The notes under the pieces are model-generated. The model searched no databases. It saw only the letters and a list, made by a program, of their open reading frames with translations, and was not told the DNA's origin. Of a stretch of DNA of 64,000 nt, positions 7,479-15,647 are shown one piece after another. The DNA comes from Methylomonas sp. MK1 (GTDB lineage Bacteria > Pseudomonadota > Gammaproteobacteria > Methylococcales > Methylomonadaceae): positions 248,001 through 312,000 of the forward strand of contig NZ_AQOV01000002.1 of the NCBI RefSeq assembly GCF_000365425.1. The letters run 5' to 3'. Positions within the stretch are counted from its first letter, which is position 1. Every line of letters starts with the position of its first letter. A program made the translations under genes and the position numbers.

Positions 7479-8834
7479 TCAGGAACTCCCCAGCAACCCC
7501 AACGCACTCAAACTAGGCAAAAAGAAATAACTGCCGCCGCGCGTCGTCACAAACTGCTGAAACCCGCAAACCCGCCGCCGCAATGGTTCATCCTGAATCG
7601 TAAAATTACGATTTTCCGCCACGCCGCTGCCGATCAAGGGGTCGTCTTCGTCGTACAAACCGGCGAATTTGACGCTGTTGATCCAGGTGTGTTGCACAAA
7701 TTCGAACTGGCGCTCGATATTCGCGTTCAAGCAGATGAACAACAAGCCGCGTTCTTTGCCGTCGTCTTTTGCCGGGTTTTCCAGAAAATTGCCGTAGCTG
7801 CGGCCGCGGCGCAGGATGCGATGGCGGTTGGCGACTTTTAGCGCTTCCGCTTCGGTCGCGCCTAAGCCCACTGCTCTGGGATTGGCGCGGCGAATGTGCG
7901 AGCCCAGTGGGCAGCCGGTGCCATGCGGGTCTTTGGTAAAGTTAAAACTGTTATCGACCTTGTTAGGGTCGGTGTCCTGATTGGGCTCCACCACTGCACC
8001 GCTTTTCCAGCGGCCGACGAACTTGGCGGCCAGATAGTCGGCGGTAATACCTTGGCGTGCGGCTTCTTCTTCCATGAATTGCCAGAATGCGCCGACATCT
8101 TGCTTCAACTGGCGTAACACCAGATAGGTGCCGTTTTTGCCAAAGGCTTCGCCGGCAGTACCCAACTGTGGCATTTTGGTAAGCTTGCCGTCGTATTGAT
8201 TCGGATAACCCAGCAAAAACTCGCCGGTGGCAATTTCGCCAGAGCCGGTAGTGGTAGGGAAGCCGTCTACGACAGGGTCGGAAATGCCGTCCGCAAAGCC
8301 GAAATGCTCCAAGGTAAAGCCGTTGGCGTCCTGCTTTTTCTCGCCGGCATCCAAGCGCTGCACGACGCTCAAGCCGGCGCCCTTAAAGGCCTTTTCATGG
8401 TATTTCTGGCTGGCGTTGTGGATAGCGTCGTTTTTGGAAAACAGCATGAATAACATATCCACCCGTTTGGCGCCGCTGCCCCAATCCCACACGCTAGGAT
8501 CGTTGATGCCACGGTCGCCCAATAGGGCCGAACGATGCTCGGAATGCATGCCTTCCCGGAAGGACAGCTCAAAGCTGTACAGGCTGTCTTTATCCAGATT
8601 TAGCTGTTCGAAACCGGAATAACTGATTGCCAGGTTTATGCGGTTTTCGGTTTCGTCGGTCGGTTTATCTGCGCCGTGGCTGATTTGCTTTTGTTCGACC
8701 AGATTTTTCAGCCAGGGCTTGGTTTTGCCGGCATCGTCGATTTTTAACAGGTAATAGCTACAGTTGGCCATATGCTTGTTATAGCCGCTAAACACGATGC
8801 CTTGTACGTCTTCTAATTTATCGATGGTGGTCAT
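7479..8834 (-). CDS. DyP-type heme peroxidase
   Basis: A 451-aa dye-decolorizing-type peroxidase that would use H2O2 to oxidise an unknown substrate. The diagnostic GFADGISDP motif carries the catalytic Asp at 182; the proximal heme ligand is His313 in GSHIRRANPR; the distal Arg is in HRILRRGRSYG at about 342. The length points to one of the larger DyP subclasses. There is no Tat or Sec signal, so it is likely cytosolic or delivered to a membrane partner. It is the last gene of a three-gene operon, 13 bases after the duplicated-domain membrane protein and downstream of a P450, a suggestive pairing of two heme oxidants. Confidence 0.93.
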   Translation of the reverse strand: MTTIDKLEDVQGIVFSGYNKHMANCSYYLLKIDDAGKTKPWLKNLVEQKQISHGADKPTDETENRINLAISYSGFEQLNLDKDSLYSFELSFREGMHSEHRSALLGDRGINDPSVWDWGSGAKRVDMLFMLFSKNDAIHNASQKYHEKAFKGAGLSVVQRLDAGEKKQDANGFTLEHFGFADGISDPVVDGFPTTTGSGEIATGEFLLGYPNQYDGKLTKMPQLGTAGEAFGKNGTYLVLRQLKQDVGAFWQFMEEEAARQGITADYLAAKFVGRWKSGAVVEPNQDTDPNKVDNSFNFTKDPHGTGCPLGSHIRRANPRAVGLGATEAEALKVANRHRILRRGRSYGNFLENPAKDDGKERGLLFICLNANIERQFEFVQHTWINSVKFAGLYDEDDPLIGSGVAENRNFTIQDEPLRRRVCGFQQFVTTRGGSYFFLPSLSALGLLGSS

Positions 8835-8847
8835 TGTTGGAGTCCTT

Positions 8848-10152
8848 TTATAAGCATTTCAGCCAAGCAGCCAGATTGGTCGTGGAAAACAAGCCTTCGT
8901 GAATCGCCCGGTTATTGGCGACATTTTTCACGGACAAATCGATGTAGGCGCTATACCAAACCAACTCGGCGAGCTGGCTGTTTCTGGCGAAATTTTTGAA
9001 ACGTTGTTCGTCGCGGGAGCCGCCGCGCAAGGCCAGCCATTGCGTATCCGGAAAGCCGCGGTCCTTACCCAGTTGGGTGTTGCTCCACACCGCGGTCAAG
9101 CCGACGCTGGCGTGGTCGATAAATTCGCCCAGATAGTTTTCCCAGCTACCGTCGTAGTTGCTCATGAATAACAAGCGCTTGTTGCCGGGCAGAATCACCC
9201 AGCGGGCAAAATGGATGGTGACGATGCCGCTCAAGTCGCCCTTGGTAGCCACCAGTTTGGCCACCAGATTGATGCCGGCCAGCACGACGCGTAAGGTGGT
9301 CAATCTGAACCAGCCGGGTTTGATTTCAATGACGCTGGTCAGATGATTTTGCAATTGCCGGTCTTCCACGCGCTGAATAGCTTCCATTTGCTCGGAAACA
9401 ACCCAGGGCTTGTCGTCCTGTTTGTCGCGCATCTCGTTCCAGCGCAACAGCACCGCGAAGGCGACGCCGGCGATCAGTACCAATACTGCCAAAAACTCCA
9501 CCAGCGGCCCGAACATGCCGAAGAAGCCGCCTACCAGCAGAATGCCTAATACCCCCAGCAAACCATTGAATATCATCTGGCCGGCACTATTTAAAAACGG
9601 CTGCGGCGTGGGTTTGTTGATGGTGCCTAAATGCTTGACGATCTCGGCATGAATCTCGGCGGGCTGTTTAGCCGCCAATTCCGGGCGATTGGCATCAATA
9701 TAGTCTTGGATACGCTGGCGGATTTGCTGTTGCTCGACAATCGTATTGCGGGTCTGGCCGGGGTGGGCGACGTAAAAGGCATTAGCACCGAAATCGTTTT
9801 TCAATAAATAGTCGGCCAGTTGGCTGGTGTTATTGCCCGGATAATCCTTGCAGCAGCTATAGACGGTATTCACAAAGTCCGGGTTTCCGGCAAGCAAATC
9901 TGTGATGAATTGCTTCACATCGCCGTCGATATTGGCCTCAAACGCCAGCAGGGCCGGCTCGCCGGTATCCACCTCCGAGGGATGCGTGCCGGGGATAACG
10001 AAAAAGGTACAGTAGTGCAGCTGTTGATAATTGGAAAATTTAATCACCGGATTGTTTTTGATATCCGTGCCTATCGGCGCCAGATACTTTTCCAGCGTTT
10101 CCAGCTGGTCCGGCAATATCTCCGTGATAACGGTCATGGGGTTTTGTTGCAT
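8848..10152 (-). CDS. Membrane protein with duplicated soluble domain, DyP/P450-associated
   Basis: A 434-aa protein I cannot name. Residues 44-106 and 313-365 resemble each other: LHYCTFFVIPG followed by ALLAFEANIDGD in the first, IHFARWVILPG followed by RLLFMSNYDGS in the second, each then leading into an acidic helix. Between them lies a hydrophobic stretch (about 192-236) able to form two membrane helices. The duplicated unit looks like a ferredoxin-like alpha/beta fold, the fold type also used by DyP domains (inference). The ATG at 10152 has AGAGG at correct spacing; a GTG two codons earlier is too close to it. It probably anchors or feeds the flanking P450 and DyP enzymes. Confidence 0.8.
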   Translation of the reverse strand: MQQNPMTVITEILPDQLETLEKYLAPIGTDIKNNPVIKFSNYQQLHYCTFFVIPGTHPSEVDTGEPALLAFEANIDGDVKQFITDLLAGNPDFVNTVYSCCKDYPGNNTSQLADYLLKNDFGANAFYVAHPGQTRNTIVEQQQIRQRIQDYIDANRPELAAKQPAEIHAEIVKHLGTINKPTPQPFLNSAGQMIFNGLLGVLGILLVGGFFGMFGPLVEFLAVLVLIAGVAFAVLLRWNEMRDKQDDKPWVVSEQMEAIQRVEDRQLQNHLTSVIEIKPGWFRLTTLRVVLAGINLVAKLVATKGDLSGIVTIHFARWVILPGNKRLLFMSNYDGSWENYLGEFIDHASVGLTAVWSNTQLGKDRGFPDTQWLALRGGSRDEQRFKNFARNSQLAELVWYSAYIDLSVKNVANNRAIHEGLFSTTNLAAWLKCL

Positions 10153-10193
10153 ACACACGTCCTCTTGAAATTATTATCGTGCTGGTGAAGAAA

Positions 10194-12230
10194 TTACCGA
10201 TCAAAACTCAGGACAAATTGATCGGGAAACGGTCCGTCGTACAAGATGCCGCTGGATATTTTTAAGTTGTTCAAGCGCAGCAAACTGGCTACCAAGGTCG
10301 GGATTTGGATGCGATTGATGTATTCGCCAAAACAGCGGTGCATGCCATCGCCAAAGTGCATATAGCGATCCAGCGCACGATCTTCGCGTACGCTGAACGG
10401 CTCCGGCCAGGCGCTTTCGTCGAACATCGCCGAGGCGGTAAAGGCGAAGACTTCGGCACCGGGCGGAATTTTCACGCCGGCAATCTCCGCGCCGTTCTTA
10501 CAATGCCGCCGCATCGCCGCCGCCATGGTGTTGAAACGAAACACGTCGAAGCACAAATGCAATAGCTTGTCTTCGTCATCGACCGCCTGTTTGGCGCGTT
10601 GCAATACATCCGGCTTGCTGAGCAATTGCTCGACAATCAAGGTGGTTGCCATTGAGGTGGTATCCAGCGCGCCGACGATCAAGCCGGAGATGTTGCGGCG
10701 GATGCCGTCGTCGTCCAGATCGTGTTCGCCGTCCATGCCCATTTTGATTAGCCGCGATAGAAAATCTTCGAACTGCTCGCCTTGTTTGATGCGCTCCCGG
10801 CGTTCGGCGATCAGATTCAGCAGATACGGCCCCATTTCCCGGAACGATTGTTCTGCGGTGATTTGAATGCTGCGATTGTTGCTGAGATTTAAAAATAGAT
10901 CGTGAAACAAGGAACGCATCCAGCGCATCATCGTCACTTCGTCTGGGCCCGGCACGCCGAGGTAATCGCGAATAAAACGCCGCGCTACCGGGCGGGTTAA
11001 TTGCGACACCATATCAATCCGGCCCAGCGGCAAGGCTGCTTGGATCATCTCGTCGCAATGCTGGCGGACGATGCGGCGAATCAGTTGGTCTTCGCCGGGC
11101 TTGATGACCCGGCGCAGTGCGCCTTGTTCTTTGCTGTAGGCTTCCGAGCGGTCCATCCCTAAGAAAAACGGCCCGTTCAAACGCTGCATATTCGGGGCGT
11201 TGATTTCGGCGATGGTGAATTCGGTATCGCGCGCCAAGGTCTCGCGCACATCGCTATCTCGCGTCACCAATGCGCGTTTTCCCAGCACCAACACCGGCTT
11301 GTGCTTGCGTAACAGCCCGAATAGCCAGCGCTGCACCGTGGCTCCGGTCAACATTGCAACGCCGCGGGCCAGGTAGTAACTGACTATATTTTGCGGGGTG
11401 GTGGATGTGGGGTGATAGTCCAGCACTGGTGCCGGCGCTGGTCGATGTTCGCGGTACATTTTCAAAGCCAGGGTGCCGGTGGGTGTGGCCGTCAATTGCT
11501 CGACAAAAGCCTGGTAGGCGGTCGGTAACTCTGCCTTGGTCGGCTGTACGCCGCCGAATTGGGCCGGCAACAACACCGGCGCGGATAGCGCTGCTAGACA
11601 ATAATCGGCGATGCTGGGTTGCTTACCCAGCAAATAGGCTCTGCCGTCGGCCAGCAGCGCGTCCAGCTCCGCAAAGATCGCTTCGATTTGTTGTTTGCAG
11701 GGTTCGACTTGTCCGGGATCGGCAGGTAGGGATTTTTCCATGGCTTTAGCCAATACGGGATAAGCGCGTTCGGCCAACCATTTTTGCCAGTTAGGCACCC
11801 GCTGTTGCCAGAACGAAAGCACCGTTTCTTTGTGTGGTAGCAACATCGCATAGCCGTAATTGCGCGTTGCCAAGCCCAATTTGTCGACCAGCAACGCCAG
11901 CAAGCGTTCGGTTTCCGCCATGCCTTTCTCGTCGCGTGGATAAAGCCGCAGTTCAGCGGGTAAACGGGCATCGATGTATTGCAGCGATTCGCGCATGGTA
12001 CATAAGGTTGCTTCGCTGGTGATCAACACCGGCATGGCCTTAGCATCGGCGCCGGCCAACAGGAAAGCGGGTAAATGCAGCATCGGCACACTGCCTTCTT
12101 CCCGGTACGGCACTCCGCCGTAGTCGAGCATCCAGCGGACTAATTCGCTGATATGGGATACCGGAATCGTCAATAAACGATTCAGCTGTTTGGATTTGGC
12201 GCCGCGCCGCGTGCTTCCGGGTTTGATCAT
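10194..12230 (-). CDS. Fusion of GST-like domain and cytochrome P450
   Basis: A 678-aa two-domain protein. Residues about 15-260 look like glutathione S-transferase: a thioredoxin-like N-half (residues 18-90, with PVLITSEATLC) and a helical C-half holding the GKQPSIADY motif with the S-x-x-D N-capping box (S206, D209). Residues about 280-678 are a P450: I-helix GALDTTS (520-526) and heme loop FGDGMHRCFG with Cys633 as thiolate ligand. The K-helix motif, normally ExxR, reads D562-V-F-R565. No reductase or ferredoxin gene is nearby, whereas a peroxidase is, so a peroxide- or hydroperoxide-using P450 is plausible (inference). First gene of its operon; GGAAGGAA precedes the ATG. Confidence 0.9.
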   Translation of the reverse strand: MIKPGSTRRGAKSKQLNRLLTIPVSHISELVRWMLDYGGVPYREEGSVPMLHLPAFLLAGADAKAMPVLITSEATLCTMRESLQYIDARLPAELRLYPRDEKGMAETERLLALLVDKLGLATRNYGYAMLLPHKETVLSFWQQRVPNWQKWLAERAYPVLAKAMEKSLPADPGQVEPCKQQIEAIFAELDALLADGRAYLLGKQPSIADYCLAALSAPVLLPAQFGGVQPTKAELPTAYQAFVEQLTATPTGTLALKMYREHRPAPAPVLDYHPTSTTPQNIVSYYLARGVAMLTGATVQRWLFGLLRKHKPVLVLGKRALVTRDSDVRETLARDTEFTIAEINAPNMQRLNGPFFLGMDRSEAYSKEQGALRRVIKPGEDQLIRRIVRQHCDEMIQAALPLGRIDMVSQLTRPVARRFIRDYLGVPGPDEVTMMRWMRSLFHDLFLNLSNNRSIQITAEQSFREMGPYLLNLIAERRERIKQGEQFEDFLSRLIKMGMDGEHDLDDDGIRRNISGLIVGALDTTSMATTLIVEQLLSKPDVLQRAKQAVDDEDKLLHLCFDVFRFNTMAAAMRRHCKNGAEIAGVKIPPGAEVFAFTASAMFDESAWPEPFSVREDRALDRYMHFGDGMHRCFGEYINRIQIPTLVASLLRLNNLKISSGILYDGPFPDQFVLSFDR

Positions 12231-12692
12231 GATTCCTTCCTCTTGCTTGCTATTGTTATAGTTTTTAATGCTATAGCTGGCATATACCGGCGACTGTTAG
12301 TCGTATCGGCTTGAATGGCATGTTGATATGCGCACTTGGTAAAACAACTTGCCGGTCTGCTCAGGTATGCCGTTATCGGCGGCTAAGCAATTGTTAATCC
12401 ATCCGTGAACCAAACGCCGAGCTTTAGCGGAGTATCAATAATAGACCAATCGTAACTAATTGAAATAAAAAGCGAAAGACAAAATGTTGCTTAGCAACAA
12501 CCGTGCCTAAATGCGAAGCACGTCACAAAACGCGGTGGGTTGCGCCCGCTTGGTGCCTAGCAAACGGAAAGCTTCTCTGCCGCTGGAATCGGCTGCAAAT
12601 CATTCCGGTTCTTTCTCTGCGGACCTTAATCAGATTGTCATTTGCCGCTGCCTATAATCCGGGCCTCTTCACAATGCTTAGGAGCAGTCGCG
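12231..12692. promoter_or_regulatory. Divergent intergenic region with a -10 box for the phoD-like gene
   Basis: About 460 bases between the P450 operon and the phosphatase genes. TATAAT at 12653-12658 lies 34 bases before the start codon at 12693 and is a good -10 candidate; the -35 is poor, suggesting an activator. A small perfect hairpin (GTTGCT-T-AGCAAC) sits at 12486-12498. The P450 promoter should be near 12250-12300, but I see no clear hexamers. Confidence 0.35.
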
Positions 12693-14309
12693 ATGCAATT
12701 ATTAAAACCCAGCTGTCATTTTTTAAAACCGGCCAAACTGGCATTGGCAATCGCCGGCCTGTTAGCGCTGAATGCGCCGGTATTTGCGCAAACCGTTGAT
12801 GTGCCGCAAATGGAGCAAGGCATCCAGATCGGCGATTTGGCACCCGGCCGCGCGATAGTTTGGAGCCGTGCCGACCGCCCTTCGCGCATGATGCTGAAAT
12901 ATGCTTATAACCCGCAGTTTAATGACGCGATTAGTGTGCGTGGTCCGTATGCATTGGCCGAGACCGACTTTACCGCCCGCCAAGACCTGACCGGTTTACC
13001 CGAGGGCAAAGACGTTTATGTCAAAGTCTGGTTTGAAGATTTGACCAACGCCCGCGGCAAAAGCGAACCGGTCATTGGACATTTTCATACTATCGGTAAA
13101 CGCGACGATATTCGCTTTGTCTGGGGCGGGGATACCGCCGGCCAAGGTTGGGGTATCAACGAAAGCTTCGGCGGCATGAAGATTTACGAAGCCATGCGCC
13201 AAGTGCAGCCGCAGTTTTTCATTCAAAGCGGCGACAATGTGTATTCCGACGGCCCGATTCCGGAGAGCAAGCTGGCCGAGAATGGTCAGCTCTGGACTAA
13301 CGTGGTGACGCCGGAAGTGAGTAAAGTCGCGGAAACCTTGGACGAGTTCCGTGGCCGCTACAAATACAATCTGTTGGATGAAAACGTCCGCCGCTTCAAT
13401 GCCGAAGTGCCGCAAATCTGGCAGTGGGACGATCATGAGGTGGTGAATAACTGGTCAGATTCCAAAGACCTGAGCGCCGATCCGCGCTACACCGAAAAAA
13501 ATATACCGACGCTAATTGCCCGCGCCACTAAAGCCTTCCTGGAATATGCACCTCTGCGTCCGCACGATGCCGAAGAATCCGAGCGGATTTATCGCAAAAT
13601 TTCCTACGGTAAATTGTTGGATGTGTTTGTGTTGGATATGCGTAGCTATCGCGGCCCGAATACCGCTAATCTGCAATCACAAGAAAATGCCGAAACCGCC
13701 TTCCTCGGTGCGGAGCAAATGGCTTGGTTGCAGGACGAGTTGAAAAATTCAAAAGCCACCTGGAAAGTCATCTCCGCCGACATGCCTATCGGTTTGAATA
13801 TTGGTGACGGTAACACCGCCCAAGGTCAAGCGCGTTGGGAAGCGGTTGCTAACGGTAACGATGGCGCTGCCGCGGGTCGGGAATTGGAAGTTGCCCGTTT
13901 GTTGAGCTTTGTCAAGCATGAGCATATCAACAACCTGGTTTGGCTGACTGCCGATGTCCACTATGCCGCAGCGCATTATTACGATCCTGCCAAGGCGGCT
14001 TCCAAAGACTTCGCGCCGTTCTGGGAGTTCGTTGCCGGTCCGTTAAATGCCGGTTCCTTCGGGCCTAACAGCACGGACGGCACCTTCGGCCCACAAGTGG
14101 TTTTCTCGAAAGCGCCGCCAGCCGGCCAAGCCAATCTGTCACCTTACGCCGGCCTGCAATTCTTTGGCGAAGTGAATATCGACAAAAAAAGCCGCGCCAT
14201 GACGGTGGACTTCAAGGACATCGACGGCACGGTTGTCTTCAGCAAAACCCTGGCGGCGGAAGCCGAACGTGAGCGCGAACACGATCATCACGACCGCGAT
14301 CACGACTAA
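12693..14309 (+). CDS. Exported PhoD-like metallophosphatase
   Basis: A 538-aa secreted phosphodiesterase/alkaline phosphatase D family protein. It has a Sec-type signal peptide (LALAIAGLLALNAPVFA, cleavage near 32), an N-terminal fibronectin-like PhoD domain (about 35-140), and the metallophosphatase core: WGGDTAG, FFIQSGDNVYSD, WDDHEVVNNW and TADVHYAAAHYY carry the expected metal ligands. PhoD enzymes release phosphate from phosphodiesters using Fe/Ca. The C-terminus ends in a His/Asp/Glu-rich tail (EHDHHDRDHD), which is unusual. TAGGAG precedes the ATG at 12693; an upstream in-frame TTG is rejected. It is followed by a second phosphodiesterase gene, suggesting joint phosphate or phospholipid scavenging. 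Confidence 0.9.
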   Translation: MQLLKPSCHFLKPAKLALAIAGLLALNAPVFAQTVDVPQMEQGIQIGDLAPGRAIVWSRADRPSRMMLKYAYNPQFNDAISVRGPYALAETDFTARQDLTGLPEGKDVYVKVWFEDLTNARGKSEPVIGHFHTIGKRDDIRFVWGGDTAGQGWGINESFGGMKIYEAMRQVQPQFFIQSGDNVYSDGPIPESKLAENGQLWTNVVTPEVSKVAETLDEFRGRYKYNLLDENVRRFNAEVPQIWQWDDHEVVNNWSDSKDLSADPRYTEKNIPTLIARATKAFLEYAPLRPHDAEESERIYRKISYGKLLDVFVLDMRSYRGPNTANLQSQENAETAFLGAEQMAWLQDELKNSKATWKVISADMPIGLNIGDGNTAQGQARWEAVANGNDGAAAGRELEVARLLSFVKHEHINNLVWLTADVHYAAAHYYDPAKAASKDFAPFWEFVAGPLNAGSFGPNSTDGTFGPQVVFSKAPPAGQANLSPYAGLQFFGEVNIDKKSRAMTVDFKDIDGTVVFSKTLAAEAEREREHDHHDRDHD

Positions 14310-14318
14310 CACCAAGTC

Positions 14319-14348
14319 GCCCGGGCGGTATTTGCCGCCCGGCAATTT
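14319..14348 (+). terminator. GC-rich hairpin between the two phosphodiesterase genes
   Basis: GCCCGGGCGG and CCGCCCGGC form a 9-bp GC-only stem with a TATTTG loop, followed by AATTT. The tract is weak, so this is more likely an attenuator or partial terminator than a full stop of transcription. Confidence 0.5.
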
Positions 14349-14393
14349 CTCTGGTTAAGCCATTTAACTTCAAGCAAAATAAGGACTCTATTC

Positions 14394-15647
14394 ATGTTGA
14401 AACCCACGTTATTGACTGTTGCCATGCTAGTTTCACTCGGTGCGCAAAACAGTGCCCACGCGCTGCCGCACAGCGAACATCACGAACATGCCAGTGCCGG
14501 CCCATTGGTCATAGGCCATCGCGGCGCATCAGGCTATCGTCCTGAACATACCCTGGCCGGCTACGCCTTGGCGATTGAAATGGGCGCGGACTTTATCGAG
14601 CCTGATTTGGTGCTGACCAAGGACGGTCAAATGATTGCTCGTCACGAACCGATGATAGGCGGTACCACCGACGTGGCTAACCACCCGGAATTTGCCAATC
14701 GCAAAACCACCCGTATGGTCGATGGCTTTGCGGTGACCGATTGGTTTGCCAGCGACTTTACCTTGAAAGAAATCAAAACCCTGCGCGCCATTCAAACTCG
14801 CGGCCGGGATAATTCTTATGACGGCGAGTTTGAAATTCCAACTTTGAACGAAGTGATTGCGTTGGCCAAGCAACAAAGCGAAAAAACCGGTCGCCGGATT
14901 GGTATCTACCCTGAAATCAAGCATTCCACTTATCACGCCGATCTGAAGAACGTTAAAGGTAAGCCGCTATTTGGTAAGAATTTCTTCGAAGATAAACTGC
15001 TGAAAAAACTACACAAGGAATACAGCAACAGCGCTTGCGCGCCAGTGTTTATCCAGTCATTCGAAGTCAGCAATCTGCAATATTTGAGCCGCAAGACCGA
15101 CATCAAATTGGTACAGCTGATTGATGCGGACGACGTCAATGCCGACGGCTCGATGTCGCTGGTTGCGCCGTATAAACAGCCGTATGACTTTGTCGTGAAA
15201 GGCGATCAACGTACTTTCGCCGATTTGCTGAGCAACGACGGTCTGGATTTTGTAAAAACCTACGCGGATGCGGTAGGTCCGTGGAAGCCTTATCTGGTGA
15301 AAACCGTAGCCGTCGATTTTGACCGCAACGGCGACGGCAAAGTCAACATTAATGACCGTATTGTTGAAGGTAGCACCGGCGTAGTAGAAATGGCCCACGA
15401 CAAAGGCTTGCTAGTGCACACCTGGACCTTCCGCAATGATGCCTCCGGTTACGGCTTTGCCGATCCGCAACAGGAAATGACTTATTACTTTGATTTGGGT
15501 GTGGATGGCTTGTTTACCGATTTCGCCGATACCGGGGTTGCGGCCCGCGATGCGTCGATTAATGCGGAACATGCCGATTTTTTGGGACGTTGTGAATCTC
15601 GCGACGACGATGGACATGAAGGTCATGCGCGCCATCATGTTCGCTGA
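14394..15647 (+). CDS. Exported glycerophosphodiester phosphodiesterase
   Basis: A 417-aa GlpQ-like enzyme that hydrolyses deacylated phospholipids (glycerophosphodiesters) to glycerol-3-phosphate and an alcohol in the periplasm. It has a signal peptide (ending about AHA, residue 23), the catalytic HRGASGYRPEHT at 42-53, the metal residues E69 and D71 in EPDLV, HEP at 84-86, and YPEIKH. Two oddities: an EF-hand-like calcium loop (DFDRNGDGKVNIND, about 308-321) inserted late in the barrel, and His-rich ends (HSEHHEH after the signal; GHEGHARHH at the C-terminus). AAGGA precedes the ATG. Co-oriented with the PhoD-like gene 84 bases upstream. Confidence 0.92.
   Translation: MLKPTLLTVAMLVSLGAQNSAHALPHSEHHEHASAGPLVIGHRGASGYRPEHTLAGYALAIEMGADFIEPDLVLTKDGQMIARHEPMIGGTTDVANHPEFANRKTTRMVDGFAVTDWFASDFTLKEIKTLRAIQTRGRDNSYDGEFEIPTLNEVIALAKQQSEKTGRRIGIYPEIKHSTYHADLKNVKGKPLFGKNFFEDKLLKKLHKEYSNSACAPVFIQSFEVSNLQYLSRKTDIKLVQLIDADDVNADGSMSLVAPYKQPYDFVVKGDQRTFADLLSNDGLDFVKTYADAVGPWKPYLVKTVAVDFDRNGDGKVNINDRIVEGSTGVVEMAHDKGLLVHTWTFRNDASGYGFADPQQEMTYYFDLGVDGLFTDFADTGVAARDASINAEHADFLGRCESRDDDGHEGHARHHVR

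Follow-up and report, generated by a model that had tools for sequence, protein, structure and literature searches.

The 64,000-nucleotide window analysed here (positions 248,001 to 312,000 of contig NZ_AQOV01000002.1, Methylomonas sp. MK1) carries on its minus strand a three-gene operon that encodes, in this order, a GST-P450 fusion (678 amino acids), a membrane protein of 436 amino acids counted from a GTG, and a DyP-type peroxidase (451 amino acids); we call the middle membrane protein gene, and its product, MID. The P450 stop and the MID ATG are 41 bases apart and MID and DyP 13 bases apart, so that the reading frames, order, strand and spacing all match the initial annotation, which had described three co-directional, tightly spaced genes. 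Its statement that the operon holds no ferredoxin or reductase gene agrees with a domain scan, in which none appeared among eight cassette and neighbouring proteins. The features, in window coordinates, are:

10194..12230, minus strand: GST-P450 fusion gene, first in the operon, from its open reading frame, a domain scan and an AlphaFold2 model (predicted local distance difference test, pLDDT, 93.1; predicted template modelling score, pTM, 0.90)
11445..12182, minus strand: GST-like domain, residues ~17-262, from PF13410 over its cut-off and the secondary structure of the model
10197..11387, minus strand: P450 domain, residues ~282-678, from PF00067 and Foldseek matches
10659..10664, minus strand: I-helix acid-alcohol pair Asp523-Thr524, from alignment
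10332..10334, minus strand: heme-thiolate Cys633, C in 120/120 database proteins and 36/36 aligned loci
8848..10158, minus strand: MID gene, open reading frame from GTG; probable start ATG at 10152 (homologues begin at Met3)
9766..10146, minus strand: MID barrel repeat 1 in the AlphaFold2 model, residues ~5-131; conserved H48 (80/80) and D78 (80/81)
9430..9582, minus strand: predicted transmembrane hairpin of MID, helices 193-212 and 218-243, from the AlphaFold2 model and hydropathy
8944..9351, minus strand: MID barrel repeat 2 in the AlphaFold2 model, residues ~270-405; conserved R285, H316, W320, N334 and D336
7479..8834, minus strand: DyP-type peroxidase gene, TIGR01413 over its cut-off
8289..8291, minus strand: DyP catalytic Asp182 (GXXDG), D in 77/78
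7896..7898, minus strand: DyP His313, H in 77/77 ungapped rows
7809..7811, minus strand: DyP Arg342, R in 77/77 ungapped rows

The first protein matched GST_C_2 (PF13410) at 33.8 bits (cut-off 24.9), PF13417 at 21.6 bits, marginally below its cut-off of 22, and the p450 domain (PF00067) at 70.7 bits (cut-off 22.8). Its heme loop, FGDGMHRCFG, fits the pattern FGxGxHxCxG, with C633 and H631 present in every aligned row. Helix K reads DxxR rather than ExxR; R565 is invariant, and among 120 database relatives the first position is D in 28 and E in 92, which by sequence is a conservative change within a clear P450. The peroxidase scored 106.6 bits against the DyP superfamily model TIGR01413 (cut-off 100.5); with Asp182, His313, which we take to be the proximal heme ligand, and Arg342, presumably the distal arginine, its active site is intact at the level of residues.

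In the AlphaFold2 model of MID (pLDDT 95.7, pTM 0.93) two ferredoxin-like repeats flank two hydrophobic helices, bearing out the duplicated domain that had been noted for the middle protein. MID is thus predicted to be a tandem ABM-type barrel around a transmembrane hairpin, a model-based assignment for which the VIA-align match list leaves other folds possible. No Pfam family matched at E ≤ 1, and hence no named ABM-superfamily family at that threshold. Some MID proteins reach ~630 amino acids (P0060 of Limnoglobus roseus, P0066, P0070) and have a multi-helix membrane N-terminus; by eye it resembles a free-standing membrane protein encoded near other cassettes (L076, L061 downstream of DyP).

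Conservation of the MID-DyP pair and its natural fusions

A search of one genome per species returned 379 MID relatives, of which the best 80, with the window, made up our set of 81 loci; this sample is skewed to close kin, with seven Methylomonas loci, the nearest to the window cassette, and near kin in L008, L013, L014 and L016. DyP directly followed MID on the same strand at 78 of the 81 loci, across many phyla, and the three loci without it are contig ends with 132, 1 and 11 bases left. From the end of the MID domain to the start of the DyP domain the median distance was 67 bases and the maximum 709. Among 121 Methylococcales genomes MID occurred in 15, with an adjoining DyP in all 15; ten of these had an adjoining P450 above 500 bits, no genome in the set had such a P450 without MID, and the five MID genomes lacking one carry a distant MID (31-33 % identity). 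In the phylum of Algoriphagus G125, MID was present in one of 345 genomes, the query genome itself, and no further loci came to light. A phage search gave no match, and none of 19 plasmid records had a single place covering 80 % of MID. The initial annotation had staked its proposal on the three genes co-occurring elsewhere; MID and DyP clearly do, and a P450 lies near MID at 37 of the 81 loci.

With a DyP-P450 fusion as query we collected 116 proteins at E ≤ 1e-60 and classed them with our own profiles. There were 42 MID-DyP chains (four of them with an incomplete MID), 31 DyP-P450 and 22 P450-MID-DyP; the rest were five DyP fusions to a catalase-related protein, one catalase-related-MID-DyP, one MID-DyP-catalase-related and 14 with DyP only. 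All 22 proteins longer than 1380 amino acids are P450-MID-DyP, that is, the operon order in one chain; an example is a 1423-residue protein on plasmid p2 of Pararhizobium qamdonense, annotated as a cytochrome P450. The P450 profile held MID columns from P0174, a GST-P450 joined to MID, and it had swallowed MID in ten long proteins and given false P450 matches on MID; a recheck with a MID-only profile raised P450-MID-DyP from 12 to 22, the ten having initially been scored as P450-DyP. This recheck left out 41 rows without I-helix letters because they have no P450 heme loop. A MID-DyP chain also occurs in Rhizobium sp. CC1099, and in Skermanella mucosa the genes run MID, DyP, P450.

Three members of the DyP-only group carry a further domain: a rubber oxygenase in P0258 (PF09995 at 88.3 bits; 5o1m at 108.9 bits), a fatty-acid alpha-dioxygenase in P0284 (PF03098 at 334.5 bits; 4kvj at 365.6 bits) and a patatin in P0330 (32.2 bits against a cut-off of 27.7). 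Each such fusion is known from one or two proteins, and these partner domains, used as queries, gave no match near MID in the 81 loci. From conserved order and fusion we regard it as almost certain that the three genes form a functional unit.

The third enzyme and the setting of the cassette

A P450 of the operon's family stands on the upstream side of MID at 25 of the 37 loci that have one (at L067 on the opposite strand) and downstream of DyP at 12. A catalase-related gene is found at nine of the 81 loci, fused to MID in L047 and to MID and DyP in L077, and adjoining in L063, L083 and L085; for one of these proteins the only solved match was 3e4w. No locus of the 81 has both (hypergeometric 0.003, or 0.006 within the 57 loci with ample flanks, figures that ignore kinship). 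In a tree built from 81 MID rows, the P450 and catalase-related labels require four changes. The Chitinophagaceae loci L060 and L084, with a GST-P450, nest in a nine-row clade (support 100) with five catalase-bearing loci, one locus with neither enzyme and one too short; their sister pair, L045 and L080, is catalase-bearing (support 91; supports are Shimodaira-Hasegawa-like approximate likelihood ratio test values, SH-aLRT, from a quick search). Genome-wide, catalase-related matches of at least 240 bits were present in 0 of 12 P450-type, 3 of 14 neither-type and 8 of 8 catalase-type genomes; these 34 genomes cover 12 of the 37 P450-type and eight of the nine catalase-type loci. As read from gene content and the tree, the third enzyme alternates between a P450 and a catalase-related protein.

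Genes for large Ser/Thr kinase-AAA proteins, in some cases with GAF and guanylate cyclase domains as well, also lie near MID-DyP: upstream of MID in L045, L080, L029, L069 and L071, upstream on the other strand in L064, L068, L075, L026 and L034, and downstream in L083 (called by Pfam scan for L029, L045, L071 and L083, and by phmmer for the others). On the Pararhizobium plasmid (L088, 4992-11874) the gene for the single-chain P450-MID-DyP lies between a cyclase gene and a Crp/Fnr regulator.

Divergent from the window operon lie PhoD-like phosphatase and GDPD genes (12642-15647, plus strand); six other Methylomonas loci likewise have the phosphatase gene upstream. A promoter scan found zero sigma-70-like sites against 4.4 expected, and terminator-like sites numbered 12 against 8.5 expected. 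The genome, of 5.23 Mb, has other P450 matches at three places outside the operon, one of which (G000:C1:2121434-2122249) has an in-frame TGA.

A candidate membrane module for hydroperoxide chemistry

CYP peroxygenases lack the acid-alcohol pair (PMC10988616). In all 22 triple fusions, which are mutually related chains, and in 6 of 31 DyP-P450 fusions, the acidic residue of this pair is replaced by Pro (P-T). Among 36 other aligned loci the pair is broken in eight, as E-P in L022, L023, L025 and L031, A-P in L040, P-T in L042 and L057, and D-N in L058. The distal residue of fungal P450 companions varies, with Thr in the 8R- and 9R-allene oxide synthases (AOS) (PMC13049297), and the pair alone is therefore not decisive. 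The window P450 has the pair and is not classed as CYP152. That it is itself driven by peroxide is possible, if somewhat doubtful, and it is for this enzyme that the peroxide chemistry proposed below would hold least securely. A motif scan for a dedicated ferredoxin adjoining the P450 covered the available sequence between -5.5 and +7.5 kb at the 37 P450-bearing loci, with reductases looked for at the window alone, and gave matches at nine; by eye these are out-of-frame open reading frames inside or across known genes, and we rejected them.

GST-like sequence accompanies the P450 at 15 of the 37 P450 loci, in 13 as its N-terminal half or directly before it; L020 and L022 have it as a gene of its own, as does L082 for a second copy. 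None occurred in those of the 81 loci without a P450. A patatin gene lies directly upstream of MID at three of the 81 loci (L026, L034, L074), found with a patatin query other than that of P0330. Methanotroph lipids are mostly mono-unsaturated C16. Scarcity of polyunsaturated acids is no bar, since the Nostoc 10S-dioxygenase accepts oleic acid (PMC13049297). The initial annotation had suggested a bacterial lipid-hydroperoxide or oxylipin-like pathway, and the unit itself, the catalase-related swap and the DyP fusions to alpha-dioxygenase, patatin and rubber oxygenase all fit such a theme, although the window P450 keeps the Asp-Thr pair of ordinary monooxygenases. No domain of the cyclooxygenase or dioxygenase type (COX/DOX) was found in the cassette or in five scanned neighbours. 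Searches for An_peroxidase and lipoxygenase gave no match in the window genome but were equally silent in controls, and so carry no weight.

On balance we think it probable that the cassette is a membrane-tethered module in which a MID-DyP core and an exchangeable heme enzyme make or transform organic, probably lipid, hydroperoxides. MID, anchored by its transmembrane hairpin, would bring soluble heme enzymes to the membrane; its tandem ABM-type barrel may dock DyP, or share a substrate with it, and may bind substrate. The MID-DyP pair would be the constant core, while the third heme enzyme, here the GST-P450 and elsewhere the catalase-related protein, would handle the substrate. We infer that the proteins form a complex, and that the third enzyme and DyP would act on the same organic hydroperoxide, probably from membrane lipids. 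The P450 may isomerise hydroperoxides or act as a peroxygenase, or it may oxidise lipid in coordination with peroxide handled by DyP; the GST domain could bind or conjugate an electrophilic product. Flow could run in either direction, with DyP either making or removing the hydroperoxide.

Several observations weigh against this proposal. No hydroperoxide-forming enzyme was seen beside the window operon. Asp523-Thr524 is retained in the window P450, and nearly all of its database relatives retain the corresponding residues (D/E in 119/120, T in 119/120), so that use of O2 with general redox partners is possible, and the 50 Foldseek matches listed for the GST-P450 model are all ordinary bacterial P450s. 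In Methylococcales, 3 of 18 genomes with a DyP match have no MID match. Of the nine catalase-related genes, four are not adjacent to MID but 4-7 kb away (L045 and L080 and, on the other strand, L064 and L074), 20 of the 81 loci have neither a P450 nor a catalase-related gene despite flanks of at least 3 kb before and at least 4.5 kb after MID, and weaker catalase-related matches (E ≤ 1e-10) occur in 5 of 12 P450-type genomes.

The retained acid-alcohol pair would suit specialised-metabolite tailoring, in which an ordinary O2-dependent P450 would draw on general ferredoxins, MID would be an ABM-type oxygenase or decarboxylase that needs no cofactor, and DyP would remove H2O2 or couple radicals. 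We regard this as unlikely: in partly annotated clusters of reading frames, no family recurs widely beside MID once generic kinases, genes conserved within Methylomonas and the families of the cassette itself are set aside; the 20 loci with neither enzyme also speak against it, as do the alternation of P450 and catalase-related protein and the loss of the acidic residue in 22/22 triple fusions. Slightly less likely is a defence against lipid peroxidation, in which the module would destroy membrane lipid hydroperoxides or their products instead of producing signals or metabolites, with GST and DyP detoxifying. DyP and catalase-related proteins do consume peroxides, GST is beside or fused to the P450 at 15 of 37 loci, and the window genome has no match to catalase PF00199, which 5 of 14 control genomes have; but the distribution of MID is patchy (15/121 Methylococcales and, of 345 genomes, the Algoriphagus query only), and DyP is fused to alpha-dioxygenase and rubber oxygenase, activities that yield oxygenated lipids. 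Chance neighbourhood or lineage inertia, for which nothing speaks but the rarity of the cassette, has a negligible probability and is ruled out by MID-DyP order across phyla, 15/15 in Methylococcales, and pairwise and triple fusions.

It would be tempting, though more speculative, to see here a widespread but unrecognised bacterial platform that runs lipid hydroperoxide chemistry and needs no NAD(P)H reductase. A constant membrane MID-DyP core would accept a P450, a catalase-related protein, a fatty-acid alpha-dioxygenase or a rubber oxygenase as its plug-in heme enzyme; the platform could be a counterpart of the eukaryotic dioxygenase/P450 oxylipin enzymes on a DyP scaffold and might in some lineages be tied to kinase and cyclase signalling. 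That the three genes of a methane-eating bacterium recur together in distant bacteria, in places as a single fused protein, suggests an oxidation pathway yet to be characterised, probably with lipids and peroxides as its substrates.

Relation to known systems

By titles and the opening lines of abstracts, none of the papers listed in literature searches deals with the cassette, and the part of PMC8230527 seen has nothing on it. MID shares only 10 % identity with WhiE-ORFI and other ABM/SchA-like tandem barrels, and it matches no Pfam family. The closest solved sequence relative of the window DyP is DrDyP of Deinococcus radiodurans (8RE3, 8RE2; residues 30-448 of 451 aligned). In DrDyP the GXXDG motif is altered at Met190, whereas that of the window DyP is intact; the part of PMC10820274 seen calls the physiological role of DyP peroxidases unclear and mentions no MID partner. 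A group of DyPs whose membrane partner is constant and whose heme partners can be exchanged would give a direct handle on that role.

The CYP152 peroxygenases (OleT type) lack the acid-alcohol pair, as do the triple fusions and some free P450s of the third slot, whereas the window P450 keeps it; the naturally occurring P450-MID-DyP chains, which lack the acidic residue, would make candidates for self-sufficient P450 systems driven by peroxide. In Nostoc, the product of the 10S-dioxygenase can pass to a catalase-related hydroperoxide lyase from a separate gene, of the same broad catalase-related family as the alternative third member here; that dioxygenase is COX-like, and neither MID nor DyP is mentioned in the part of PMC13049297 seen.

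The initial annotation had likened the operon to eukaryotic dioxygenase/P450 pairs, a comparison that holds as a likeness, although the cassette is not a member of that family. Fungal dioxygenase-P450 fusions, of the linoleate diol synthase and allene oxide synthase type, likewise combine a heme protein of peroxidase type with a P450 in a single chain, and their P450 is, as far as known, self-sufficient on hydroperoxide (PMC13049297). Here, in contrast, the peroxidase is a DyP and not COX-like, a membrane ABM-type barrel is predicted in between, the window P450 keeps Asp-Thr, and the cassette is known from sequence alone. The architecture resembles that of dioxygenase/P450 enzymes but uses a DyP scaffold and a membrane partner that has no name, a variant that none of the listed papers describes as far as titles and abstracts tell. 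The alternation of P450 and catalase-related protein parallels the two scaffolds known, from titles and abstracts, for rearranging fatty-acid hydroperoxides.

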